This document shows positions 46,892-64,000 of a DNA stretch of 64,000 nucleotides, piece after piece; position 1 is the stretch's first letter, and the number at the start of each line of letters is the position of its first letter. The notes below the pieces were generated by a model. That model was not told where the DNA came from, made no database searches, and saw nothing but the letters and a program-made list of their open reading frames with translations. The position numbers and the translations under genes were made by a program. This DNA is from Ensifer adhaerens (lineage in GTDB: Bacteria; Pseudomonadota; Alphaproteobacteria; Rhizobiales; Rhizobiaceae), in the NCBI RefSeq assembly GCF_028993555.1, contig NZ_CP118610.1:2108001-2172000 (forward strand), given 5' to 3'.

Positions 46892-49399
46892 CTAGAGGGT
46901 AACGGGAACGATCTTGACCGCGCATTTTTTGAAATCCGTCTGTTTGGAGATGGGATCGGTGGCGTCGAGCGTAACCTTGTTGATGAGCTGGCTCGCGTCG
47001 AACCAGGGAACGAAGATGACGCCGGGCGGCATGCGGTTGCGGCCGCGGATATCGACGCGCGAGCGGATTTCGCCGCGCCGCGAGACGATGCGCACTTCCA
47101 TGCCCTGGTTGATGCCGCGCTTGCGCGCGTCCTCGGCATTCATGAAGACGCGCGCACCCGGAAACGCCTTGTAGAGTTCCGGCACCCGCATGGTCATCGA
47201 GCCCGAATGCCAGTGTTCGAGCACGCGGCCGGTCACCAGCCAGGTGTCGTATTCCGCGTCGGGGGATTCGGCCGGCGGCTCGTAGGGCACGGCGAGAATG
47301 ATCGCCTTGCCGTCCTTGTTGCCATAAAACTTCACGCCCTCGCCCGCCTTCACGTAGGGGTCGAAGCCCTCGCGGTAGCGCCACTTCGTCTCCTGGCCGT
47401 TGACGACAGGCCAGCGCAGCCCCCTGACCTCGTGATAGGTGTCATAGGGCGCCAGATCGTGGCCGTGGCCACGGCCGAAGGTGGCATATTCCTCGAACAG
47501 GCCCTTCTGGATGTAGAAGCCGAAGTCCTTGGCCTCGTTGTTGTCGTACTCGGCGCTGACGTCGGTGATCGGAAAGCGATCGACCTCTCCGTTCTTGAAC
47601 AGGACTTCGAACAGCGTCTTGCCGCGATATTCGGGGCTGGCGTCGAGGATTTCCTTCGGCCACACCTCGTCGGTGATAAAGCGCTTGGAAAATTCCACCA
47701 TCTGCCAGAGATCCGAGCGTGCCTCGCCGGGAGCCTGGACAAGCTGATGCCAGACATGGGTGCGCCGCTCGGCATTGCCGTAAGCGCCTTCCTTCTCCAC
47801 CCACATGGCGGCGGGCAGGATCAGGTCGGCGCTCATCGCGGTGATCGTCGGATAGGCATCGGAAACGACGATGAAGTTGTCCGGGTTGCGATAGCCCTGC
47901 CAGGTCTCGTTGGCAGTGTTGGGACCCGCCTGGACGTTGTTGTTGACCTGCACCCAGTAGAAATTGAGCTTGCCGTCCTTCAGCATCCGGTCCTGCTGCA
48001 CGGCGTGATAGCCGGGCTTTTCCGGGATGATGCCGTGCGGGATGCGCCAGATTTCCTCCGCGTGCTTGCGATGCTCGGGGTTGGTCACCACCATGTCGGC
48101 CGGCAGCCGGTGCGCAAAGGTGCCGACCTCGCGCGCCGTGCCGCAGGCCGAAGGCTGGCCGGTCAGCGAGAACGGGCTGTTGCCGGGCTCGGAGATCTTG
48201 CCGGTCAGAAGGTGCAGGTTATAGACCATCTGGTTGGCCCAGACGCCGCGCACATGCTGGTTGAAGCCCATGGTCCAGAGCGACATGACCTTGCGGCCGG
48301 GGTCGGCATAGAGCTCGGCAAGCTGCTTCAGGAATTCCGGCTCGACGCCGGTCAGCTCGACGGTCTTTTCCAGCGTGTATTCCGAAACCAGCGCCTTGAA
48401 CGCCTCGAAGTCGATCGGCTCGGTCTTGCCCGGATCCTTGGAGTTGGCGGCATTGACCTCGACCGGATTGTCGGGCCTGAGGCCGTAGCCGATATCGGTC
48501 ACGCCGCGGGCAAACTTGGTGTGCTTGTTGACGAAGTCCTCGTTGACGCGGCCAGTCTCGATGATGTGGTTGGCGATATAGTTGAGGATCGCCAGATCCG
48601 TGCCCGGCTTGAAGACAATGGGGATATCGGCGAGATCCATGCTGCGATGGGTGAAGGTCGAAAGCACCGCGACCCGCACATGCGGCTGGCCGAGACGCCG
48701 GTCGGCGACCCGCGTCCAAAGGATCGGGTGCATCTCCGCCATGTTCGAGCCCCAGAGCACGAAGGCATCGGCGTTCTCGAAATCGTCGTAGCAGCCCATC
48801 GGCTCGTCCATGCCGAAGGTGCGCATGAAGGCGACGGCGGCCGACGCCATGCAGTGGCGGGCATTGGGGTCGAGGTTGTTGGAGCGGAAGCCCGCCCGCA
48901 TCAGCTTGGTCGCGGCATAGCCCTCGAAGATCGTCCACTGGCCGGAGCCGAACATGCCAACCGCCGTCGGCCCCTTCTCCTTCAGGACCCTCTTTGCCTG
49001 CTCGGCCATCACGTTGAAGGCCTCGTCCCAGCTCACCGGCTCGAACTCGCCGTCCTTGGCGTAGGCGCCGCCTCGCTTGCGCAAAAGCGGCGTCGTCAGC
49101 CGGTCGTTGCCATACATGATCTTGGAGAGGAAGTAGCCCTTGATGCAGTTGAGGCCGCGGTTGACCTCCGCCTGCATGTCGCCGTGGGTGGCGACCACCT
49201 GGCCTTCCTTCACGCCCACCATCACGCCGCAGCCCGTGCCGCAGAAGCGGCACGGCGCCTTGGACCATTTGATCTCCAGCGCGTTGACACCGCCCGGCAC
49301 CGGCTGTGCGGCCGCAGGCAGCGCAATGCCGGCCGTGGCGGCGGCGATGCCGGCTGCGTGGGCCTTCAGAATGTCACGCCGCGTCAGTTCTCCGCTCAT
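46892..49399 (-). CDS. napA: NapA, catalytic subunit of periplasmic nitrate reductase
   Basis: 835 residues, full length. Twin-arginine signal ([20 protein letters not shown]). 4Fe-4S cysteines at 50, 53, 57 and 85 (CRFCGTGC ... LNCIKGY) and the molybdenum ligand Cys at about 183 ([10 protein letters not shown]), followed by the bis-MGD-binding domains. It reduces nitrate to nitrite in the periplasm. Its start overlaps the NapD stop (ATGA). Folded and cofactor-loaded before Tat export with the help of NapD and NapF. Confidence 0.97.
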
Positions 49400-49680
49400 G
49401 GCTCCTGCCTTTCCTCTTCCATTTCGACATGCTCGAAAACCATGTTGGCCGAGATCACGCCATCAAGCAGCGAGATCCTCGACAGGCATTCGCCGAGCGC
49501 GCCCGTGCTTTTGCCTTCGATGACGATGACGATCTTGCCGCCGCCTTGGCCGTGGATTTCGACGTTTTCCATTCCTTGGAGCGTTGCGATCACCGCTTCG
49601 GTGCTCAGAGGCATCGTGGCGACCACGGCGCTCGAAATGTGATAGGGCGTGCCCGCTTTTGCTGTTGCCGCCTCAGACAT
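49396..49680 (-). CDS. napD: NapD, chaperone for NapA
   Basis: 94 residues. [20 protein letters not shown] starts the ferredoxin-like fold; [11 protein letters not shown] is the conserved NapD motif. It binds the NapA signal peptide during cofactor insertion. The stop overlaps the NapA start by four bases, and its own start lies within the end of napF (eight-base overlap), so translation is tightly linked. The longer frame toward 49965 is antisense or shifted NapF. Confidence 0.92.
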
Positions 49681-50173
49681 GAGCCACCTCCACTTCCAAT
49701 GCCTTGACCGCGATCGCGCTGACCGGGCAGCCGGCAAGGCAGGCGCCGCAGCCGGTGCATCTGGCCGCGTTGATCTCCGGCAGGAACGGCCCGCCGATGC
49801 GTGGGCGAAAGCGGATCGCCTGCTCGGGACAGCTTTCGCCGCAGGACTGGCAGGCGACGTTGCGGCGCGCCAGGCATGTGTCGGTGATCGCGGCGACATG
49901 GGGGAAGCGTCGCACGTTCTTCTCTGCGAATACCGGCTCCGGACAGGCTTCCGCGCAGGCGCCACAAAAGGTGCATTCGCCGCGCGCGAAGTCGATGAAA
50001 GGAAGACCGTCGGCGAGACGGATTATGTCGGTGGGACATCGCTCGGCGCAGAGGCCGCAGCCGGTGCAGGCCGCAAGGCTTGGATCCGACACCCCGGGCG
50101 GGCGGATGCGCACCGGCCTTGCGGCAGCGCGGCCGGTAAAGAGTTCACGGCGGGAAAGAGGTTCTGCAGCCAT
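49673..50173 (-). CDS. napF: NapF, ferredoxin-type iron-sulfur protein
   Basis: 166 residues with four Cys-rich clusters: CTGCGLCAERC (from Cys 36), CTFCGACAEACPEP, CQSCGESCPEQ and CTGCGACLAGCP, fitting several 4Fe-4S centres. It is cytoplasmic and helps load or activate NapA. GAGGTGAGCC precedes the ATG; there are eight bases to the NapE stop. Confidence 0.93.
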   Translation of the reverse strand: MAAEPLSRRELFTGRAAARPVRIRPPGVSDPSLAACTGCGLCAERCPTDIIRLADGLPFIDFARGECTFCGACAEACPEPVFAEKNVRRFPHVAAITDTCLARRNVACQSCGESCPEQAIRFRPRIGGPFLPEINAARCTGCGACLAGCPVSAIAVKALEVEVAHV

Positions 50174-54533: not shown

Positions 54534-54899
54534 CTAGCGCAGCGTCCCCAGTGCATCGGCCAGAGTGTCCCTGGAAACCGGCTTGTTGAGGAATGCGGCG
54601 GCACCGGCCTGAAGACAGCGCTCGCGCGTGCCTTCCTGTTCCGATCCGGTGATGACGATGGTCTTCATCACGATGCCGCGGCGGTCGAGTTCCTCCAGGA
54701 GTTCCAGGCCGGTCATGCCCGGCAGGTGCAGGTCGATCAAAGCGCCCTGGGGCACCGCGTCATCCACCGAAAGGAGAAAGGCTTCGGCCGACGAAAAGGC
54801 GATCGGCTGGCAGGACAGCGATGCGACGAGGCGTGAAAGCGCGCGGCGAACCAGTTCGTCGTCGTCCACGATGGCAATGGCTGGCGTTCGCTCGCTCAT
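54534..54899 (-). CDS. Single-domain response regulator (receiver only)
   Basis: 121 residues, a bare receiver: acidic pocket VDDDELV, phospho-acceptor Asp about 56 (ALIDLHLPGMTG), Thr in VITGSEQ and Lys in FLNKPVS. No output domain. It could act as a phosphate sink or a second partner for the adjacent kinase. The 19-bp CTAG-centred motif lies 34 bases upstream of its start, in the same orientation relative to the gene as the copy before the sulfatase, so it is probably a target of the FixJ-like regulator. Confidence 0.87.
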   Translation of the reverse strand: MSERTPAIAIVDDDELVRRALSRLVASLSCQPIAFSSAEAFLLSVDDAVPQGALIDLHLPGMTGLELLEELDRRGIVMKTIVITGSEQEGTRERCLQAGAAAFLNKPVSRDTLADALGTLR

Positions 54900-54932: not shown

Positions 54933-54951
54933 CAGTTGGACCTAGGGCCAA
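54933..54951 (-). promoter_or_regulatory. 19-bp CTAG-centred regulatory site, copy 1
   Basis: On the minus strand TTGGCCCTAGGTCCAACTG, identical over 19 bases to 57588-57606. The core TTGGNCCTAGGNCCAA is an inverted repeat. It sits in the 72-base gap between the two response regulator genes, upstream of the receiver gene. Confidence 0.75.
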
Positions 54952-54971
54952 TGCAGGAAACGACGGACACC

Positions 54972-55595
54972 TCAGCGCCCATATTCGACCAGCCGCACGA
55001 GATCGGCGACGGTCCTGACCCCCATCTTCGCCATCATCCGGGCGCGGTGAACCTTGATGGTCTTTTCCACCGTTCCGAGATCGCCCGCGATCTGCTTGTT
55101 CAGCCGGCCGGCAACCACATGCTGCAGCACTTCCGCCTCACGCGCCGTGAGGCTCTCCAGCCTGGCCTGGACCCGAGCCTTCTGCTGATCGGCCTCCCTC
55201 TCGCCCCGCGTCCGCTGCACGCCGGCCTCGATCGCCACCAGAAGGGCCGCTTCCTCGACCGGCTTCATCAGGAAATCCACGGCCCCGGCCTTCATCGCCC
55301 TGACGCTGGAGGGAACATCGGCACGGCCGGTGAGGAAGACCACGGAGGGGTGCCCATCGATGGTTGAAAGCGCCTCCTGCACGCCAAGCCCGTCCGTATC
55401 GGGAAGACCGAGGTCGAGCACGATGCATTCGGCAGTCGCCAGTTCGGCGCATCCGAGCAACGAGCGCGCATCGGCAAAGGGCGTCACCGCATAGCCGGAG
55501 AGTTTCAGCAACCGCTGCAGGGAGCGCAGGACACGCTCGTCATCGTCGACGATGAAAACCGTTCCGGCCCTTTCCTGCCCTGCTCCCTCCTGCAT
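54972..55595 (-). CDS. FixJ/NarL-type response regulator with LuxR HTH
   Basis: 207 residues. Receiver domain at about 12-125 (VDDDERV, phospho-acceptor Asp 61 in VLDLGLPDTDG, LTGRADVPSSVRAMKAGAVD) with the FixJ-like DFLMKPVEE segment. LuxR-type HTH at about 148-205 (LTAREAEVLQHVVAGRLNKQ, VEKTIKVHRARMM). It lies 36 bases downstream of the kinase frame, forming a two-component operon. It should bind the 19-bp CTAG-centred site. Confidence 0.9.
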   Translation of the reverse strand: MQEGAGQERAGTVFIVDDDERVLRSLQRLLKLSGYAVTPFADARSLLGCAELATAECIVLDLGLPDTDGLGVQEALSTIDGHPSVVFLTGRADVPSSVRAMKAGAVDFLMKPVEEAALLVAIEAGVQRTRGEREADQQKARVQARLESLTAREAEVLQHVVAGRLNKQIAGDLGTVEKTIKVHRARMMAKMGVRTVADLVRLVEYGR

Positions 55596-55631
55596 CGCAG
55601 ATCCCTCCAGAAGCCTGTCGCACGGCGCGCT

Positions 55632-57463
55632 TCAACCAGCCGGCAATGTGACGACGGCGCGCGCACCGCGTGTCGCCTTACCGTCGAAGACAAGCTTGCC
55701 GCCCCGCGCCTCGACGAGCGAGCGGCATATGGCAAGACCCAGCCCGAGCCCGTTCTCCTTGGTACTGACGAACGGCTTGAACACCTCAGCCATCTGCTCG
55801 GGCGCAATGCCCGGCCCGGCGTCGCTGACGGTCAATTGGCGCGTGCCATTTTCGCCGAGACGCGTGGCGATTTCAATCTTGCGCCGCTTCGGCGGCAGTT
55901 CCGTCATCGCGTCGGCGGCATTCAGGATCAAATTGAGGATCACCTGCTGCAACTGCACCATGTTGGCCTTGACGGGCAGCGGCTCGGCGCTCGAATTGAG
56001 CGAAACCTGGGTGCGGCGCGCCACCATCTCGGCGTTGACGAGCCCGACGGTCGAGCGCACCGCGTCGTTGAGGTCGATCCGCTCGACCGAAACGTCGCCC
56101 TTGCGCATCATGCTGCGAAGCTGCGCGATCACCTCGGCCGCACGTTTGTTGTCAGCGACGATATCGTCGAAGATCTCGCCGATTTCCTGAAGATCGGCAT
56201 CGTCTGCCCGTGCGATCTTCCGGCCCGCTTCCGCATTGGCAAGGATGGAGGTGAGCGGCTGGGTCAACTCATGTGCCAGCGTACCGGAAAGCTGGCTCAC
56301 CTGCGAGCGCCGCGACATGTGTGCGAGTTCCAGCCGCTGCGTCGAAACCGTGTCCTCGAGCCGTCGATTGCGCCGGTTCTGGAAGATGATCGCCGCGATC
56401 GAAACCGTCTGGGCGGCTATGACCGAGAGCCCGAGAATGATCGGCAGCCGGAACTGCTCCCAGGCGGTCGGCTGGTAGTTGAGGATCTCGGCATCCGCAG
56501 GGATCTTGTCGCGCGCAATGCCGCGGCTGGCGACCTGTCGCCAGTCGATCAGCGCCACCTCCTTCAGCGTGGCCGGCGGGCCAATGCTGTTGCCGTCGAA
56601 CAGTCGCAGCGCAAGCGACGCCATCTCCTCCCCGATCGCCGCGAAGGTGCGCCGACATGTCCTGCAAGCACCGTGCCGTCGAAGTAGCTGCTGTAGACGC
56701 TGTAGACAGGCGCGCCCGACGTTACGGCGATCCGGCTCGCCGCATCGCGCGGAATGTAGGAAACGCCGTTGGCATCGGCGAAGACTGAAAGGATCAGGAG
56801 CACGCTATCGGCCGGCAGGCCCGCAGCCATGGCCTTGAAGTCCTCGAGCGAAAGACCGCTGACATAATCGATGTCGAAGCCGGCATAATGTTCGCCGACC
56901 AGCGCCCGCGCCGTCTCCTCCCAACTCCGGTCGAAGGGAGCGGACCCCGTCAGGATCGTCGTCCGCTTTGCCTCCGGCTGCAGCTTGCGGGCAAGCTCGA
57001 GCGTTCCCTTGACGTCGAACCGGCTGAGAACACCTGTTGCATCGGCCGGCACCGGAACATCCCTCGGCACCTCGCGCACCGCGCCAAAGACGATCGGAAC
57101 GCCGGGCGCGAACCGGCCACGCTCGGCCAGCGCAAAGCGCAGCGCGCTCGGCCCCACCGTCAGAAGGGCGTCGAGCGGCTTGCCGGCATATTTTTCCTGA
57201 ACGTAGCGGATCAGTCTTTGCCGGTCGCCTTCGGCGCCGAAGCGCACGAGGTCGAGATGTTCGGAATAGAGTTCGATATGGCGCGCGTCCTTGGCGAGCC
57301 GCCCGGCAATGCCCTGAGATATCTCGATCGTCGCGGGCTGCGTGCTTTCGTTTTCGTAGAGGATCAGGATGCGTTCGGCAGACGCGGTTTCGCCGAAGGC
57401 GGCGACGCCCATGAGAACGAGCACCGGAAGCGCTGCCCTTCGAAGCCGGAAACCCCACCCCAT
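55632..57463 (-). pseudogene. Sensor histidine kinase with ABC-substrate-binding sensor domain, frameshifted
   Basis: Two adjacent frames make one protein. The upstream half (stop at 56564) has a signal/anchor peptide (GFRLRRAALPVLVLMGVAAF) and an ABC_sub_bind-type periplasmic domain (ILILYENESTQPATIEISQG ... SYFDGTVLAGHVG). The downstream half (ATG at 56624) continues with ASLALRLFDGNSIGPP, a membrane helix at about 60-82, the H-box SGTLAHELTQPLTSIL (His 118), N-box ILNLILNAAD and G-box DAGPGI and GLGLGLAICRSLVEARGG. Near 56650 the frame shifts: after GHVG the other frame reads TFAAIGEEMAS directly into the second half. This is one base lost or two gained. It may be a real mutation or a sequencing error. 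The start (ATG 57463 or GTG 57472) is uncertain. Confidence 0.82.
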
Positions 57464-57587
57464 GCGGTCCACACGCCCTCCCTCTTCCGCGTTCCAAAGC
57501 ACGCATTCGTTACAGTAGCTTCGGAGTTTCCCCAGGAGAAGACCAGTCACGCGCGCCTGTTCCGGGCGACCGCTGAGGGCGATCAAG

Positions 57588-57606
57588 TTGGCCCTAGGTC
57601 CAACTG
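57588..57606 (+). promoter_or_regulatory. 19-bp CTAG-centred regulatory site, copy 2
   Basis: TTGGCCCTAGGTCCAACTG, identical to the minus-strand copy at 54933-54951. It lies between the divergent kinase and sulfatase genes, about 150 bases before the sulfatase GTG. It is probably bound by the FixJ-like regulator of the same cluster. Confidence 0.75.
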
Positions 57607-57754: not shown

Positions 57755-59401
<1,647 letters not shown>

Positions 59402-59550: not shown

Positions 59551-61860
59551 CTACTTCCGCACCTCGATCACGAGCGGGTAGCCCTCGTCGTTCCACTCCA
59601 GAAATCCGCCGGCGAAATAGTAGACGCGCTTGTAGCCCCAGGCGATCGCCTTGGCCGACGCATAGGCGGCGTAGGTGCAGCTCCTGCCCTGGCAATAGAA
59701 GGCGACCTCGTCCTCCTTTCCCACCACCTGGGCGAGGCTTTCCCTCGAAAGGTCCGTGACGAGCGACAGGTTGACCGCCCTTGGGATATGGCCGTTGTCG
59801 TAGTTGGGCGGGGCCCGCACGTCGACGAAGACGACGCCGCGCGCCAGCAGCGCCCTTGCCTCCGTCACATCGACCTTGATCGTTCCGTCGACACTCAGTT
59901 CGCCGTTGGTCACCGTCATGAACTTCGCATAGTCGTCGAGCGCGAGGTCGGTGCCAGCGCCCTCCGGCAATCCGGCCTTGCGAAGCCCCTCCTGCAGGCG
60001 CGCAATGTAGGGCCGGTGATAGCTGAAGGCGCTGCCATACCACTCATAGGCGCTTTCCTGGACGGTAAGCGGATCGCCCAGAAACGACAGCGACAAGCTG
60101 TTGTAGCGGTCGACCAGCGCGGCAATGCCGCCCGTGCGTCCGAGGTGTCCGTAGCTCGCGATCAGAGTGGCATAATCCGCAAGAAGCGCGGCCTTGCCTT
60201 CGATCACGCGTTGATAGGTGTCGACGGCTTTCTCGTATTTGCCCTGGGAGAAAAACGAGACTGCCAGCATGCGCAGCGTTGCCCGCGAGGGATGGGGATC
60301 GAACCGCATCGCCAGGCCGGCCTCAGCTTCCGCCTCCGCCGCACGTCCGGTCGCGTTTAGGATACGCGCCATCCCCACATGGTTGTCAGGGTCGTTCGGC
60401 GCCAGCTTCACCGCCTGGCCGATGGCGGCAAACGCATCGTCGTAGCGCCCCTGTTGCGCCAGCACCTGCGCCGAGACGGCATAGGCAAGCGGCGTCGGCC
60501 GCTCCAGCGCCTTGGCAAGATTTCTGGTCAGGTTCGTGGACGCGGCTTCCCTGCGGGAAAAGTCCCAGGAGAGCACACTCGCCCGCCAGTTTGCCGCCGC
60601 CAGAGACGCGTAGGCACGGCTATAGTCCGGATCGAGCACGATCGCCTTCTGGAAGAATGCCGAAGCCGCCACCGTTTCGGCCTCGCTGTCGCGACGCAGA
60701 TGTTCCCATCCCTTGAGCAAAGTGTCGTAGGCTTGCGGATTGGTCGTTTCCGGCACCGCTGCGACGCTTTTTTCGGCGCTTGTCAGCTTTACCGAGAGCG
60801 TCGACACGATCTGCGCGATCACCCGGTCCTGCAGGCCGAATACGCCGCTCATTTCACCGTCGTAACGCTCGGCCCAGAGATGGTGCCCGTCGACCGCGTC
60901 GATCAGCTGGGCATTGACCCGGACATGGCTTCCCTCCCGACGGACGCTGCCCTCGAGGATGTAGTGGACGCCCAGTTCCTCGGCCACCTGTTGCACCTTG
61001 GTCGGCTTGCCCTTGTAGGTGAAGGTCGAGTTGCGCGCGATCACGAAGATGCCGGAGAGCTTCGAGAGTTCGGTGATCAGGTCGTCGGTCATTCCGTCGG
61101 CAAAGTAGCTCTGCGCCGCATCCGAACTCAGATTTTCGAAGGGCAGGACCGCGATCGAGGGCGTTTTGGGCATCGGCAAGGCCAGCCGCGCCATGGATGC
61201 GGCCTCCGTATTCTCGCGTCTAAGCACGCCCCATGTTGCGGCCATCCCGATCAGCAGGAGCGCGACCAAGGCGGCTGCAGTCCGCCAGCCTCGAACCCGC
61301 CTGAAGGTGAAGCGCCGGGGCCGGACCTTTCCCTCAAACCGCATCCGGTAGACGCGGACGGGCCGCTGGATGTTCTTCACATGGTGCTCGCCGATAAACT
61401 CCAGCGGCAGTTCGAACTTGCCCTGCAAATGGTCGAAAGCGGTGCCGGATACGAACAGTCCTCCCGGCTCGCATATCTGCTCGAGTCGGGCCGCGACATT
61501 GACGCCGTCGCCGAGCAGATCGTCCCCTTCGACGACGACATCGCCAAGATTGATGCCCATGCGCAGCAGCAGCCGGTGTTCGGATGGAACATCGTTTTGG
61601 CGTGCAGCGACCTCTTTCTGTGACGCAACGGCGCAAGCGACGGCATCGACGACGGAGCCAAATTCCACGATCGCGCCGTCGCCCATGAGCTTGACGATGC
61701 GCCCGTGATAATCCTCCCGGAGTGGATCGAAGACTTCGGATCGCCAGGCCTTGATGGCAGCGAGCGTGCACGCCTCGTCGGCCTCCATCAATCGCGAATA
61801 ACCAACGATGTCGACGGCAAGAATTGCCACCAGGCGACGTTCTGCGCGAACTGCTTCCAT
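59551..61860 (-). CDS. Class III cyclase-TolB-like-TPR protein fused to a C-terminal rhodanese
   Basis: 769 residues. Cyclase domain at 1-180 (LAVDIVGYSRLMEADEA, KLMGDGAIVEFGS, GDGVNVAARLEQ), a single membrane segment at about 213-230 (AALVALLLIGMAATWGVL), a TolB/FlgO-like domain (SIAVLPFENLSSDAAQSYFA), TPR repeats, and a rhodanese domain in the last 115 residues (ARGVVFVDVRAPPNYDNGHI, active-site loop CQGRSC with Cys about 723). The order is inside-out: a cytoplasmic cyclase joined to a periplasmic sulfurtransferase/TPR region if the helix spans. GGAGAGG precedes the ATG at 61860; a GTG at 61866 is the alternative. Confidence 0.87.
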   Translation of the reverse strand: MEAVRAERRLVAILAVDIVGYSRLMEADEACTLAAIKAWRSEVFDPLREDYHGRIVKLMGDGAIVEFGSVVDAVACAVASQKEVAARQNDVPSEHRLLLRMGINLGDVVVEGDDLLGDGVNVAARLEQICEPGGLFVSGTAFDHLQGKFELPLEFIGEHHVKNIQRPVRVYRMRFEGKVRPRRFTFRRVRGWRTAAALVALLLIGMAATWGVLRRENTEAASMARLALPMPKTPSIAVLPFENLSSDAAQSYFADGMTDDLITELSKLSGIFVIARNSTFTYKGKPTKVQQVAEELGVHYILEGSVRREGSHVRVNAQLIDAVDGHHLWAERYDGEMSGVFGLQDRVIAQIVSTLSVKLTSAEKSVAAVPETTNPQAYDTLLKGWEHLRRDSEAETVAASAFFQKAIVLDPDYSRAYASLAAANWRASVLSWDFSRREAASTNLTRNLAKALERPTPLAYAVSAQVLAQQGRYDDAFAAIGQAVKLAPNDPDNHVGMARILNATGRAAEAEAEAGLAMRFDPHPSRATLRMLAVSFFSQGKYEKAVDTYQRVIEGKAALLADYATLIASYGHLGRTGGIAALVDRYNSLSLSFLGDPLTVQESAYEWYGSAFSYHRPYIARLQEGLRKAGLPEGAGTDLALDDYAKFMTVTNGELSVDGTIKVDVTEARALLARGVVFVDVRAPPNYDNGHIPRAVNLSLVTDLSRESLAQVVGKEDEVAFYCQGRSCTYAAYASAKAIAWGYKRVYYFAGGFLEWNDEGYPLVIEVRK

Positions 61861-61891
61861 AACCACCTCTCCGAAGGTGTAGAAGGCCTCG

Positions 61892-61998
61892 CTCCTGCAT
61901 GTTGCCTTTGATCATAGCCGATTGAACGACAAAACCATGCAGCAATTCAAAGTGCTACAGCGACCTTTGCGCATCAGATATGACGCGCGGCGCTGAAG
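61892..61998 (+). repeat. RIME-like 107-bp dispersed repeat, copy C
   Basis: Same 107-base element as at 29009-29115 (same orientation) and 6157-6263 (inverted): CTCCTGCATG ... ATTCAAAGTGCTACAGCG ... GACGCGCGGCGCTGAAG. It lies between the two cyclase genes, in the promoter region of the rhodanese-fused one. Confidence 0.75.
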
Positions 61999-62079
61999 TG
62001 CGTTGTCAGGGGTTGAAACTCAGGCGTTCTTGCCCGAAGCCGCGCTGCTCCCTGCTCCGGCCAGAACGTCGTCCGGCCG

Positions 62080-63816
62080 TCAGCCTGCCCCCGCCTTCAC
62101 CAGCCCCTCGCGCAAATGCTGCGTGTCCGTGTCCTGCGCATAGTGCATCGTCGCCAGGAACGCCTCGATCTCGAACGCCGGCGCAAGCGCCCGCACCTTG
62201 TCCATATGTGCCGCAGCCGCAATTCCGTCGCCGAGCCAACCGTAGCAGGCGGAGACGAAGGCGTGCTGGGTTTCGTCCATCGAGGTCAGATGCATGAAGG
62301 CCTCGATCGCCTCGCCATATTGGCGGGCGGCAAAATGGGCCTTGCCGAGGTGGCTCCAGAAGCGTTCCGGGTGATGCGGATTGAGGCGCATGGCCTTGCG
62401 GATCCACTCCACCCCCTCCTCCGGCCGGCCGAGCCATGTCAGGAGTTCGCCCTGCTGCACCACGACGAGGTCGTAGTTGGGGTTGAGGAAGAGCGCCCGC
62501 TCCTGGTGATAGCGCGCCGTCGTCAGTGCGTTGTTGTTGACGTTGACGGCCGCAAGGATCCGGTGCACGTCGGCGTCGTTGTCGTCGAGCGAAAGCGCCC
62601 GTTCGAGCTCGGCATTGACCTCGAGCCACGTCGCCTCCTTGTCTTTGCACCAGCCATAGACCCAGGCCTGGCCGAGGATGCAGGCCCGCCAGGCGTGCGC
62701 ATGGGCATAGCCGGGGTCGAGCGAGACGGCCCGGTCGATCAGCGACTGCGCCTGGGCGTTGTCGGCGACGGTGCTGCGATGGTGCAGCACCTTGGCGGCC
62801 AGCGCGCATTCGTAAGCCGCCATGTTGGCCGGCTTGGTGCGCGAGAGCTGGTCGCGCTGCGCGGCCTCCAGGCGCCCGGGTACGGTGGCGGCGATCGCCG
62901 CCGTCACCTCGTCCTGAATGGCGAAGATATCGTCGAGCTGCCGGTCGTATTTGTCGGCCCAGATATGGGCATCGTTGACCGCATCGATCAGCTGCACGGT
63001 GACCCGCACCCGCTCGCCGATCTTGCGCACGCTGCCTTCGACCAGATATTGCGCGCCGAGGCTGGCCGCCACCTCACGCGCGTTCACCGACTGGTTCTTG
63101 TAGACGAAGGAGGAGTTGCGCGAGATGACGAAGAGCTCGTGCCGGCGCGAAAGCTCGGTGATGATGTCCTCGGTCAGGCCGTCGGCGAAAAATTCCTGGT
63201 CCGGATCGCCGCTCATATTGTCGAAGGGCAAGACGACGATCGTCGGTTTGCAGACGCCCTTTTTCGCTTCGCTCGCCCCCGTCGAGGTCGGAAGGTCCAG
63301 GCCCTCGAGACCGATGCGGTAGAGGCGCATCGGCCGGCTGATGTTCTTCAGCGTCTTTTCTCCGAGATCTTCGATCGGCAGTTCCAGCCGGTCGGCCACC
63401 TGTGTCGCCACCGCTGCGGTGACGCAGATGCCACCGACCTCGGCCAGCTGCTCGGCCCGCGCCGCGATGTTGACGCCGTCGCCGAAGATGTCGTCATCCT
63501 CGAAGATGATGTCGCCGAGATTGATGCCGATGCGGAATTCGATCCGCCGGTCCTCCGGCACGTCGGAGTTCCGCCGCTTCATGCGCTGCTGGATCTCGAC
63601 GGCGCATTTGACCGCATCGGTCACGCTCTGGAACTCGACCAGCAAGCCGTCGCCGGTGGTCTTGATCAGCCGGCCCTTGTTCTTGGCAATCGCGGGATCG
63701 ATGAGCTCGATGCGGTGGGTTCTCAGCCGCGCAAGCGTGCCCGCCTCGTCGGCTTCCATCAGCCTGGAGTAGCCGGCCATATCGGCCGCCAGCACTGCGG
63801 CGAGTCTCTGCTCCAT
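62080..63816 (-). CDS. Class III adenylate/guanylate cyclase with TolB-like and TPR regions
   Basis: 578 residues, soluble. Cyclase domain with AAVLAADMAGYSRLMEADEA, KTTGDGLLVEFQS and GDGVNIAARAEQ; TolB-like region (IVVLPFDNMSGDPDQEFFAD, LVEGSVRKIGERVRVTVQLI); C-terminal TPR repeats. It is close to the cyclase at 32485 in architecture, without membrane helix or rhodanese. The ATG at 63816 begins the conserved MEQRLAAVLAADM; the earlier ATG at 63864 is less likely. It is followed by the rhodanese-fused paralogue on the same strand, suggesting tandem duplication with later fusion. The last 184 bases of the window (63817-64000) hold no gene. Confidence 0.87.
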   Translation of the reverse strand: MEQRLAAVLAADMAGYSRLMEADEAGTLARLRTHRIELIDPAIAKNKGRLIKTTGDGLLVEFQSVTDAVKCAVEIQQRMKRRNSDVPEDRRIEFRIGINLGDIIFEDDDIFGDGVNIAARAEQLAEVGGICVTAAVATQVADRLELPIEDLGEKTLKNISRPMRLYRIGLEGLDLPTSTGASEAKKGVCKPTIVVLPFDNMSGDPDQEFFADGLTEDIITELSRRHELFVISRNSSFVYKNQSVNAREVAASLGAQYLVEGSVRKIGERVRVTVQLIDAVNDAHIWADKYDRQLDDIFAIQDEVTAAIAATVPGRLEAAQRDQLSRTKPANMAAYECALAAKVLHHRSTVADNAQAQSLIDRAVSLDPGYAHAHAWRACILGQAWVYGWCKDKEATWLEVNAELERALSLDDNDADVHRILAAVNVNNNALTTARYHQERALFLNPNYDLVVVQQGELLTWLGRPEEGVEWIRKAMRLNPHHPERFWSHLGKAHFAARQYGEAIEAFMHLTSMDETQHAFVSACYGWLGDGIAAAAHMDKVRALAPAFEIEAFLATMHYAQDTDTQHLREGLVKAGAG

Positions 63817-64000
63817 GGCTTGCCAACACTTTGAAAAGCGGCCCGTTCCGGACTTCCGGACCAAGGAGGTTCTGGTCCGATACTATCGCACGGCCGGGCA
63901 TTATCCTATCTAAATTAGCGAACTCCGCCCCTCTATCGACACGGCTCCGCTCGGCATCGATTGCCCGATCGCAAGCTCACCTTTGGCCATGACACGCCGG

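Follow-up and report, generated by a model that had tools for sequence, protein, structure and literature searches.

Two identical 19-bp sites in Ensifer adhaerens as the predicted operator of a FixJ-like regulator linked to an arylsulfatase gene

The gene set and its two 19-mers

The 64-kb stretch of Ensifer adhaerens DNA that was analysed (the window) contains genes for a sensor kinase, a FixJ-like response regulator, a single-domain receiver and, divergently from the kinase, an arylsulfatase. The regulator (54972..55595, minus strand, 207 aa) combines a receiver domain (PF00072, 1.2e-23) with a LuxR-type HTH domain (GerE, PF00196, 1.4e-17), which places it in the FixJ/NarL type, and it is the proposed operator-binding protein. 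The receiver (54534..54899, minus strand, 121 aa) is CheY-like and matches PF00072. The arylsulfatase (57755..59401, plus strand) comprises 548 aa when read from a GTG codon at 57755, just ahead of which lies AAGGAGAA, and has a sulfatase domain (PF00884, 4.6e-48). The protein carries RRSVL at residue 25, which we take to be a Tat-type motif, and CTAGR at residue 112 (58088..58102, plus strand), which fits the general pattern C/S-x-A/P-x-R and presumably represents the formylglycine motif C-x-A/P-x-R of type I sulfatases. The genome contains three candidate FGE genes (PF03781 matches, all above the cut-off), and the top-scoring chain among the solved structures compared with the sulfatase was 7aj0, 'Arylsulfatase'. 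As a separate observation, the sulfatase is 82-84% identical over about 90% of its length to proteins whose names assign them to Verrucomicrobium, Caulifigura and Nitrospira, which is above what we expected from the species distances. Elsewhere in the window two adjoining adenylate cyclase-TPR proteins are encoded at 59551-63864 (minus strand), of which the first has a rhodanese domain at its C-terminus, and a gene that looks by eye like NapA (periplasmic nitrate reductase) is found at 46892-49399 (minus strand) with a ferredoxin-like gene nearby (49673-50173).

The kinase is encoded in two frames in the window. The N-terminal piece (56564..57463, minus strand) has a signal peptide, recognised by eye, and a TrpX-like periplasmic domain. 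The C-terminal piece (55632..56624, minus strand), in a separate frame, has a membrane helix, also assigned by eye, and matches both HisKA (PF00512) and HATPase_c (PF02518), as a sensor histidine kinase should. In a relative (L063) the kinase is a single protein of 609 aa with matches to HATPase_c and HisKA, the latter slightly below its cut-off. The two window pieces meet at residues 270/271 of this relative, near position 56650 (frame change at 56640-56660, minus strand), where the N-terminal piece leaves the frame of the intact relatives. Since an intact 609-aa protein (P0012) exists that is about 99% identical to both pieces, the frame break is either specific to the strain or an assembly error.

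The earlier note, which was based on the sequence of the window, had described this protein as a periplasmic ABC-type sensor kinase, a description that holds in part. Fold comparison assigned the window's sensor domain a two-lobed, TrpX-like type I binding fold, the matched chains being, as we assume, members of the TrpX / PF04392 (ABC_sub_bind) solute-binding family, and PF04392 was precomputed on 9 of the 120 kinase relatives listed and absent from the other 111. On the debit side, the sensor piece itself matched no Pfam family at E<=1e-3, PF04392 included, and the kinase is frame-broken. The rmsd to the TrpX-like chains is about 6 A, and the lobes therefore differ. Weak Foldseek neighbours (the amino-terminal domains of NMDA receptors and LacI regulators) were taken to reflect the common type I binding fold rather than kinship. 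As to the signal, a sulfated compound would be our guess.

The 19-mer TTGGCCCTAGGTCCAACTG occurs in two exact copies in the window. The first predicted operator (54933..54951, minus strand) faces the receiver gene: its start lies 20 bp beyond the stop codon of the regulator and 52 bp ahead of the receiver ATG (54899), and its end is 33 bp from that ATG. The second (57588..57606, plus strand) lies in the intergenic region from which the kinase and sulfatase genes diverge and faces the sulfatase, with the kinase ATG (57463) at 124 bp and the sulfatase GTG (57755) at 148 bp. As the earlier note had claimed, the two copies are identical and have the same orientation relative to the downstream gene, and the 16-bp core is an inverted repeat, in which 7 of 8 pairs are complementary. 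Equally, CTAG is rare: there are 20 occurrences in the window versus a mean of 79 in shuffles, which is about fourfold below the dinucleotide expectation. At up to three mismatches TTGGNCCTAGGNCCAA was found at two places in the window, both without a mismatch (1.78 expected at this threshold), and in the 7.77-Mb genome exact copies are confined to these two places, with one more place at two mismatches. When the centre was left free (TTGGNCCNNGGNCCAA, at most one mismatch), five places were found in the genome, namely the two window sites and three with one mismatch. These counts agree with the idea of a regulon that is private in this genome, and a genome-wide regulon in this strain, which was considered as well, is not supported by them.

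Consensus, direction and spacing of the sites

A search with the full-length kinase gave matches in 21 of 394 family genomes, and the family- and order-level matches together fell into two clades of loci, designated S1 and S2. When 48 sites (43 of them distinct) were read towards their target, the consensus TTGGnCCnnrGTCCAACTA was obtained. The original description of the site as CTAG-centred had to be abandoned at this point: CTAG, considered as an essential core, is found in 7 of the 43 distinct sites only, the centre is not conserved, and the element has a direction and reaches as far as CCAACTA. In fact, three of the genus genomes (G445, G447 and G452) carry TTGGACCTGGGTCCAA and TTGGCCCTTGGTCCAA at the same two positions, so that conservation is confined to the half-sites, with a variable centre. 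In the kinase-sulfatase intergenic region the CCAACTA side points away from the kinase, which makes the sulfatase, or its replacement, the likelier target.

The spacing towards the receiver is equally regular. In all but one of 20 loci the site starts 52 bp ahead of the receiver ATG; the exception, L138, has 51 bp. A Shine-Dalgarno-like word stands ahead of this ATG in one of the 20 loci (L143), and TATA-like stretches are found about 9 to 14 bp before it in many relatives; no TATA-like box was seen in the window's own receiver promoter or in its close group. The receiver transcript is probably leaderless, and we infer that the regulator is bound beside the -35 region. In one locus (L081, genome G375) the receiver gene itself is in two frames, and stops follow closely on the ATG found at 52 bp from the start of the site.

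A palindrome close to a promoter can serve as a repressor site, and the regulator might accordingly be a repressor that blocks transcription until a signal relieves its binding. We consider this unlikely. The distance from the site centre to the start codon is fixed at 44 bp, and 19 of 20 loci have no Shine-Dalgarno-like word ahead of that codon, an arrangement that suits an activator beside the -35 of a leaderless transcript better than it suits a protein that blocks the -10 or the start. From the geometry alone we thus infer activation rather than repression.

Distribution of the sites and regulator clades

Within the genus an orthologue of the regulator (E<=1e-60) is present in 5 of 16 genomes, namely the present one (G000), G154, G445, G447 and G452, the regulators of the last three being 62-63% identical. 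Sites with at most one mismatch to the CTAG form occur in all five (one in G154, two in each of the others) and in one of the other 11 genomes (G270), where a single site lies in a stretch in which no module genes were found. Exact sites occur in 3 of 297 family genomes, all three with the module or its remains. By a fixed rule, which asked for a site at no more than two mismatches within 250 bp after the regulator match, 14 of 14 S1 loci have the site, whereas none was found in the 12 S2 loci or in the 18 further loci of the FixJ type. This count repeats an earlier one with hand-set gap limits, which were chosen after the sites were known and gave a site before the receiver in 15 of 15 S1 loci (500 shuffles: mean 0.10, maximum 2) and within 300 bp ahead of the kinase in 12 of 14, the exceptions being L081 and L145 with three mismatches (500 shuffles: mean 0.25, maximum 3); because several loci are close kin (L062-L064, L139/L140, L081/L082), the locus counts are not independent.

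The regulators were placed in a tree of 44 members (14 S1, 12 S2 and 18 others), from which L143 (no regulator), L007 (broken), L155 (fragmented) and the plasmid loci L199-L205 were left out. The 14 S1 regulators form one side of a branch (100/99) that adjoins S2. Their recognition helix reads KT[IV]KVHR in all 14; the corresponding stretch is ERT[VI]KAHR in 10 of 12 S2 regulators and EITVK in 14 of the 18 others. The suggestion that the motif is tied to the regulator, rather than scattered at random, is supported by this co-occurrence in relatives and by the fact that the site-bearing loci make up one regulator clade with its own recognition helix. In short, the 19-mer pair is private to the locus in this genome and is conserved in position, direction and spacing in one regulator clade, and the other clades that were covered showed no such site between regulator and receiver.

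The S2 loci, which are also mostly linked to a sulfatase, have sites of the TATTGTCCTTTGGGG type at positions corresponding to those of the S1 sites. This pattern was derived from the kinase-upstream sites of L090, L147, L148 and L150 and from the receiver gap of L090, and these places are therefore no tests of it. With up to two mismatches TATTGTCCTTTGGGG is found between regulator and receiver in 7 of the 13 S2 loci scanned (6 of 12 without L090), and sites of this type lie upstream of the kinase in 8 of 13, a number that includes the loci from which the pattern was drawn. A match to the S1 pattern at the same threshold was present within 400 bp ahead of the kinase in 2 of 13 S2 loci (L148 and L149). 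The present genome also holds an S2 module (L090, G000:C2, about 142.5-146.1 kb) with a divergent sulfatase (41%). Its operator, TATTGTCCTWWGGGGMAG, has three exact copies in the genome, all at the S2 module, and one inexact place each is found elsewhere on C2 (one mismatch) and at the S2 module (two mismatches). S1 and S2 sites are unmixed in this genome.

Sites with one mismatch at both positions were also recovered from plasmid records, namely Ensifer adhaerens NER9 pB, Sinorhizobium meliloti ABS7 pSymA, S. meliloti LMB1 pA and S. medicae WSM419 pSMED01. Outside the family, Alloyangia pacifica (Rhodobacterales) has a gene row of an ATP-binding protein (the kinase), two response regulators, an arylsulfatase and a HAD hydrolase, with a two-mismatch site ahead of the sulfatase and none at up to three mismatches ahead of the receiver. 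The betaproteobacterium Eleftheria terrae has two sites (one and two mismatches) upstream of a regulator that is 54% identical, and no sulfatase was found in the fetched stretch. There was no site in Microvirga ossetica (regulator 45%), nor in the Xanthobacter loci L041 and L042, which have part of the same gene set.

Several loci are incomplete. L143 (genome G064) has kept the sites, the kinase, the receiver and the sulfatase, and has no regulator between kinase and receiver. In L138 (genome G103) the kinase match begins at residue 334 and the sensor half was not found there, and in L155 the regulator match is fragmented. In Ensifer sp. LC11 (L007/L040) the module has decayed, the front of the sulfatase being lost and the kinase and regulator matches fragmented; a perfect site still stands before the receiver. 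In G103 exact sites are found on two contigs, and the regulator and the kinase core on a third. The idea that these exact sites are unrelated and due to chance was dropped in view of these genes and of the position of one site before a DUF3300 gene.

The sites might instead belong to another, unlinked DNA-binding protein, with the FixJ-like regulator binding elsewhere; the module-free site of G270, the sites that remain in G064 without a regulator gene in place and the separation of the exact G103 sites from the module contig speak for this. We consider the reading unlikely, since the presence of the operator tracks the regulator clade, a different operator occupies the corresponding positions in the S2 clade, and the regulator and the kinase core of G103 are present on the third contig. 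A functionless pair, arisen by chance duplication or as a mobile repeat, to which the identity of the copies over 19 bp might point, is hardly credible, considering that the same two positions are conserved between diverged flanks, that the counts are not reproduced by shuffles and that in relatives the two copies of one locus differ from each other and are therefore not recent copies.

Predicted targets, proposed circuit and known systems

On the preferred reading, in which the sites are the operator of the FixJ-like regulator, the genes that they face would be its targets. A site with up to two mismatches lies upstream of the sulfatase in 12 of the 14 S1-type loci that have one (the window, L062, L063, L064, L081, L082, L141, L142, L143, L145, L146 and, outside the regulator tree, L199, L201 and L203). 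The exceptions are L081 and L145, which have only three-mismatch sites near the kinase although a sulfatase is present. Where the sulfatase has been relocated it keeps a site of its own, as in L141 and, after the receiver, in L142, L143 and WSM419. A sulfatase was not found in the fetched stretch of L138, L139, L140, L144, L200 and L204. Other genes also occur: L141 and L144 have DUF1254/DUF1214 genes opposite the kinase, L143 has a HAD hydrolase gene after the sulfatase and L146 an FGE-type gene near its sulfatase, and DUF3300 genes lie within the module stretch of L082, L139, L140, L142, L145, L146 and S. meliloti ABS7.

The DUF3300 gene of G103 has an exact site about 140 bp ahead of the start codon assigned to it, and the next gene is presumably DUF2950. 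In the same genome another exact operator (L009:9470) lies about 140 bp before an ORF of 68 aa (9624), beside what appears by eye to be an OmpR-type two-component pair. DUF3300 co-occurs with the module in 15 of 16 module genomes versus 10 of 106 genomes in which clade S1 is not known to occur, numbers that are uncorrected for kinship and genome size. Among the DUF3300 loci of module genomes, 4 of 20 have a site with up to two mismatches within 700 bp upstream, which in one of the four (G336) is the site of the receiver itself; in other genomes the figure is 1 of 13. DUF3300 as a general target was therefore retained in part only, and with 16 of the 20 loci in module genomes lacking a site in this range the link to the operator is no more than suggestive. 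In a published study DUF2950 and DUF3300 are described as always adjoining, as induced in two RNA-seq studies and as having a neighbourhood that gives no hints, and the pair is flagged as a plant-interaction determinant without functional hints (PMC4653623).

We assign a probability of about 0.83 to the explanation as a whole, that is, that the two 19-mers serve as operator for the FixJ-like regulator whose gene lies between them and work in the following circuit, as judged from sequence. The kinase would bind a small, possibly aromatic, ligand via its periplasmic TrpX-like domain and phosphorylate the FixJ-like regulator, a dimer of which would bind the consensus element just upstream of the promoter. 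The bound regulator would turn on the arylsulfatase and the single-domain receiver, and the latter would compete for phosphate and so provide a feedback brake. This sensor-and-switch gene set very likely controls the arylsulfatase, and the kinase with its TrpX-like sensor, the FixJ-like regulator, the receiver and the arylsulfatase are predicted to constitute a private regulon. Because the operator stands before DUF1254 genes, and sometimes DUF3300, in some other species, there may be a small envelope and sulfate-ester regulon.

A wider reading is tentative, and we would put it at clearly less than even odds. It supposes a rhizobial family of dedicated sulfate-ester sensors, in which a TrpX-like, aromatic-binding kinase detects aryl sulfates or their aromatic product and directly induces the arylsulfatase, whether or not sulfur is scarce. 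Paralogues in one cell would be kept separate because operator and recognition helix have changed together (TTGGnCCnnrGTCCAACTA in S1, the pattern given above in S2), and the same operator would be the first regulatory setting for DUF3300-DUF2950. For an orphan two-component system of Ensifer and Sinorhizobium the analysis yields a precisely delimited operator with a short list of predicted targets, and thereby a direct route to the signals to which soil and plant-associated bacteria respond by making arylsulfatase. Moreover, it offers a natural test of a joint change of operator and recognition helix in paralogous regulators of one genome, together with an initial, as yet weak, lead on DUF3300-DUF2950.

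The regulon is undescribed in the literature searched (titles and abstract openings, with most subscription journals outside the scope), where no description of the sulfatase regulon or its operator was found; the type of system is already known. It resembles FixL/FixJ-type systems (NarL/LuxR-HTH) in having a kinase, a receiver-GerE regulator (PF00072 and PF00196) and a palindromic site by the target promoters. The sensor of FixL is a haem-PAS domain, whereas the present module has a TrpX-like periplasmic sensor, a sulfatase and a receiver as presumed targets, and the operator TTGGnCCnnrGTCCAACTA. Unlike the solute-binding proteins of the TrpX / PF04392 family, the sensor domain is fused to a membrane kinase, has no Pfam match and superposes on their chains at the rmsd of about 6 A given above. 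The sulfatase has the features of formylglycine-dependent arylsulfatases (PF00884, the motif C-x-A-x-R, FGE-type genes in the genome and the similarity to chain 7aj0). Arylsulfatases are typically controlled by sulfur limitation, whereas a dedicated two-component control is proposed here. Finally, single-domain receivers can act as hubs, inhibitors or phosphate sinks, according to published reports (PMC5964349, PMC9430884, PMC4214558). The present receiver is likewise encoded with a kinase, and it differs from the known examples in that its gene appears to carry the module's own operator, at a fixed distance of 52 bp.
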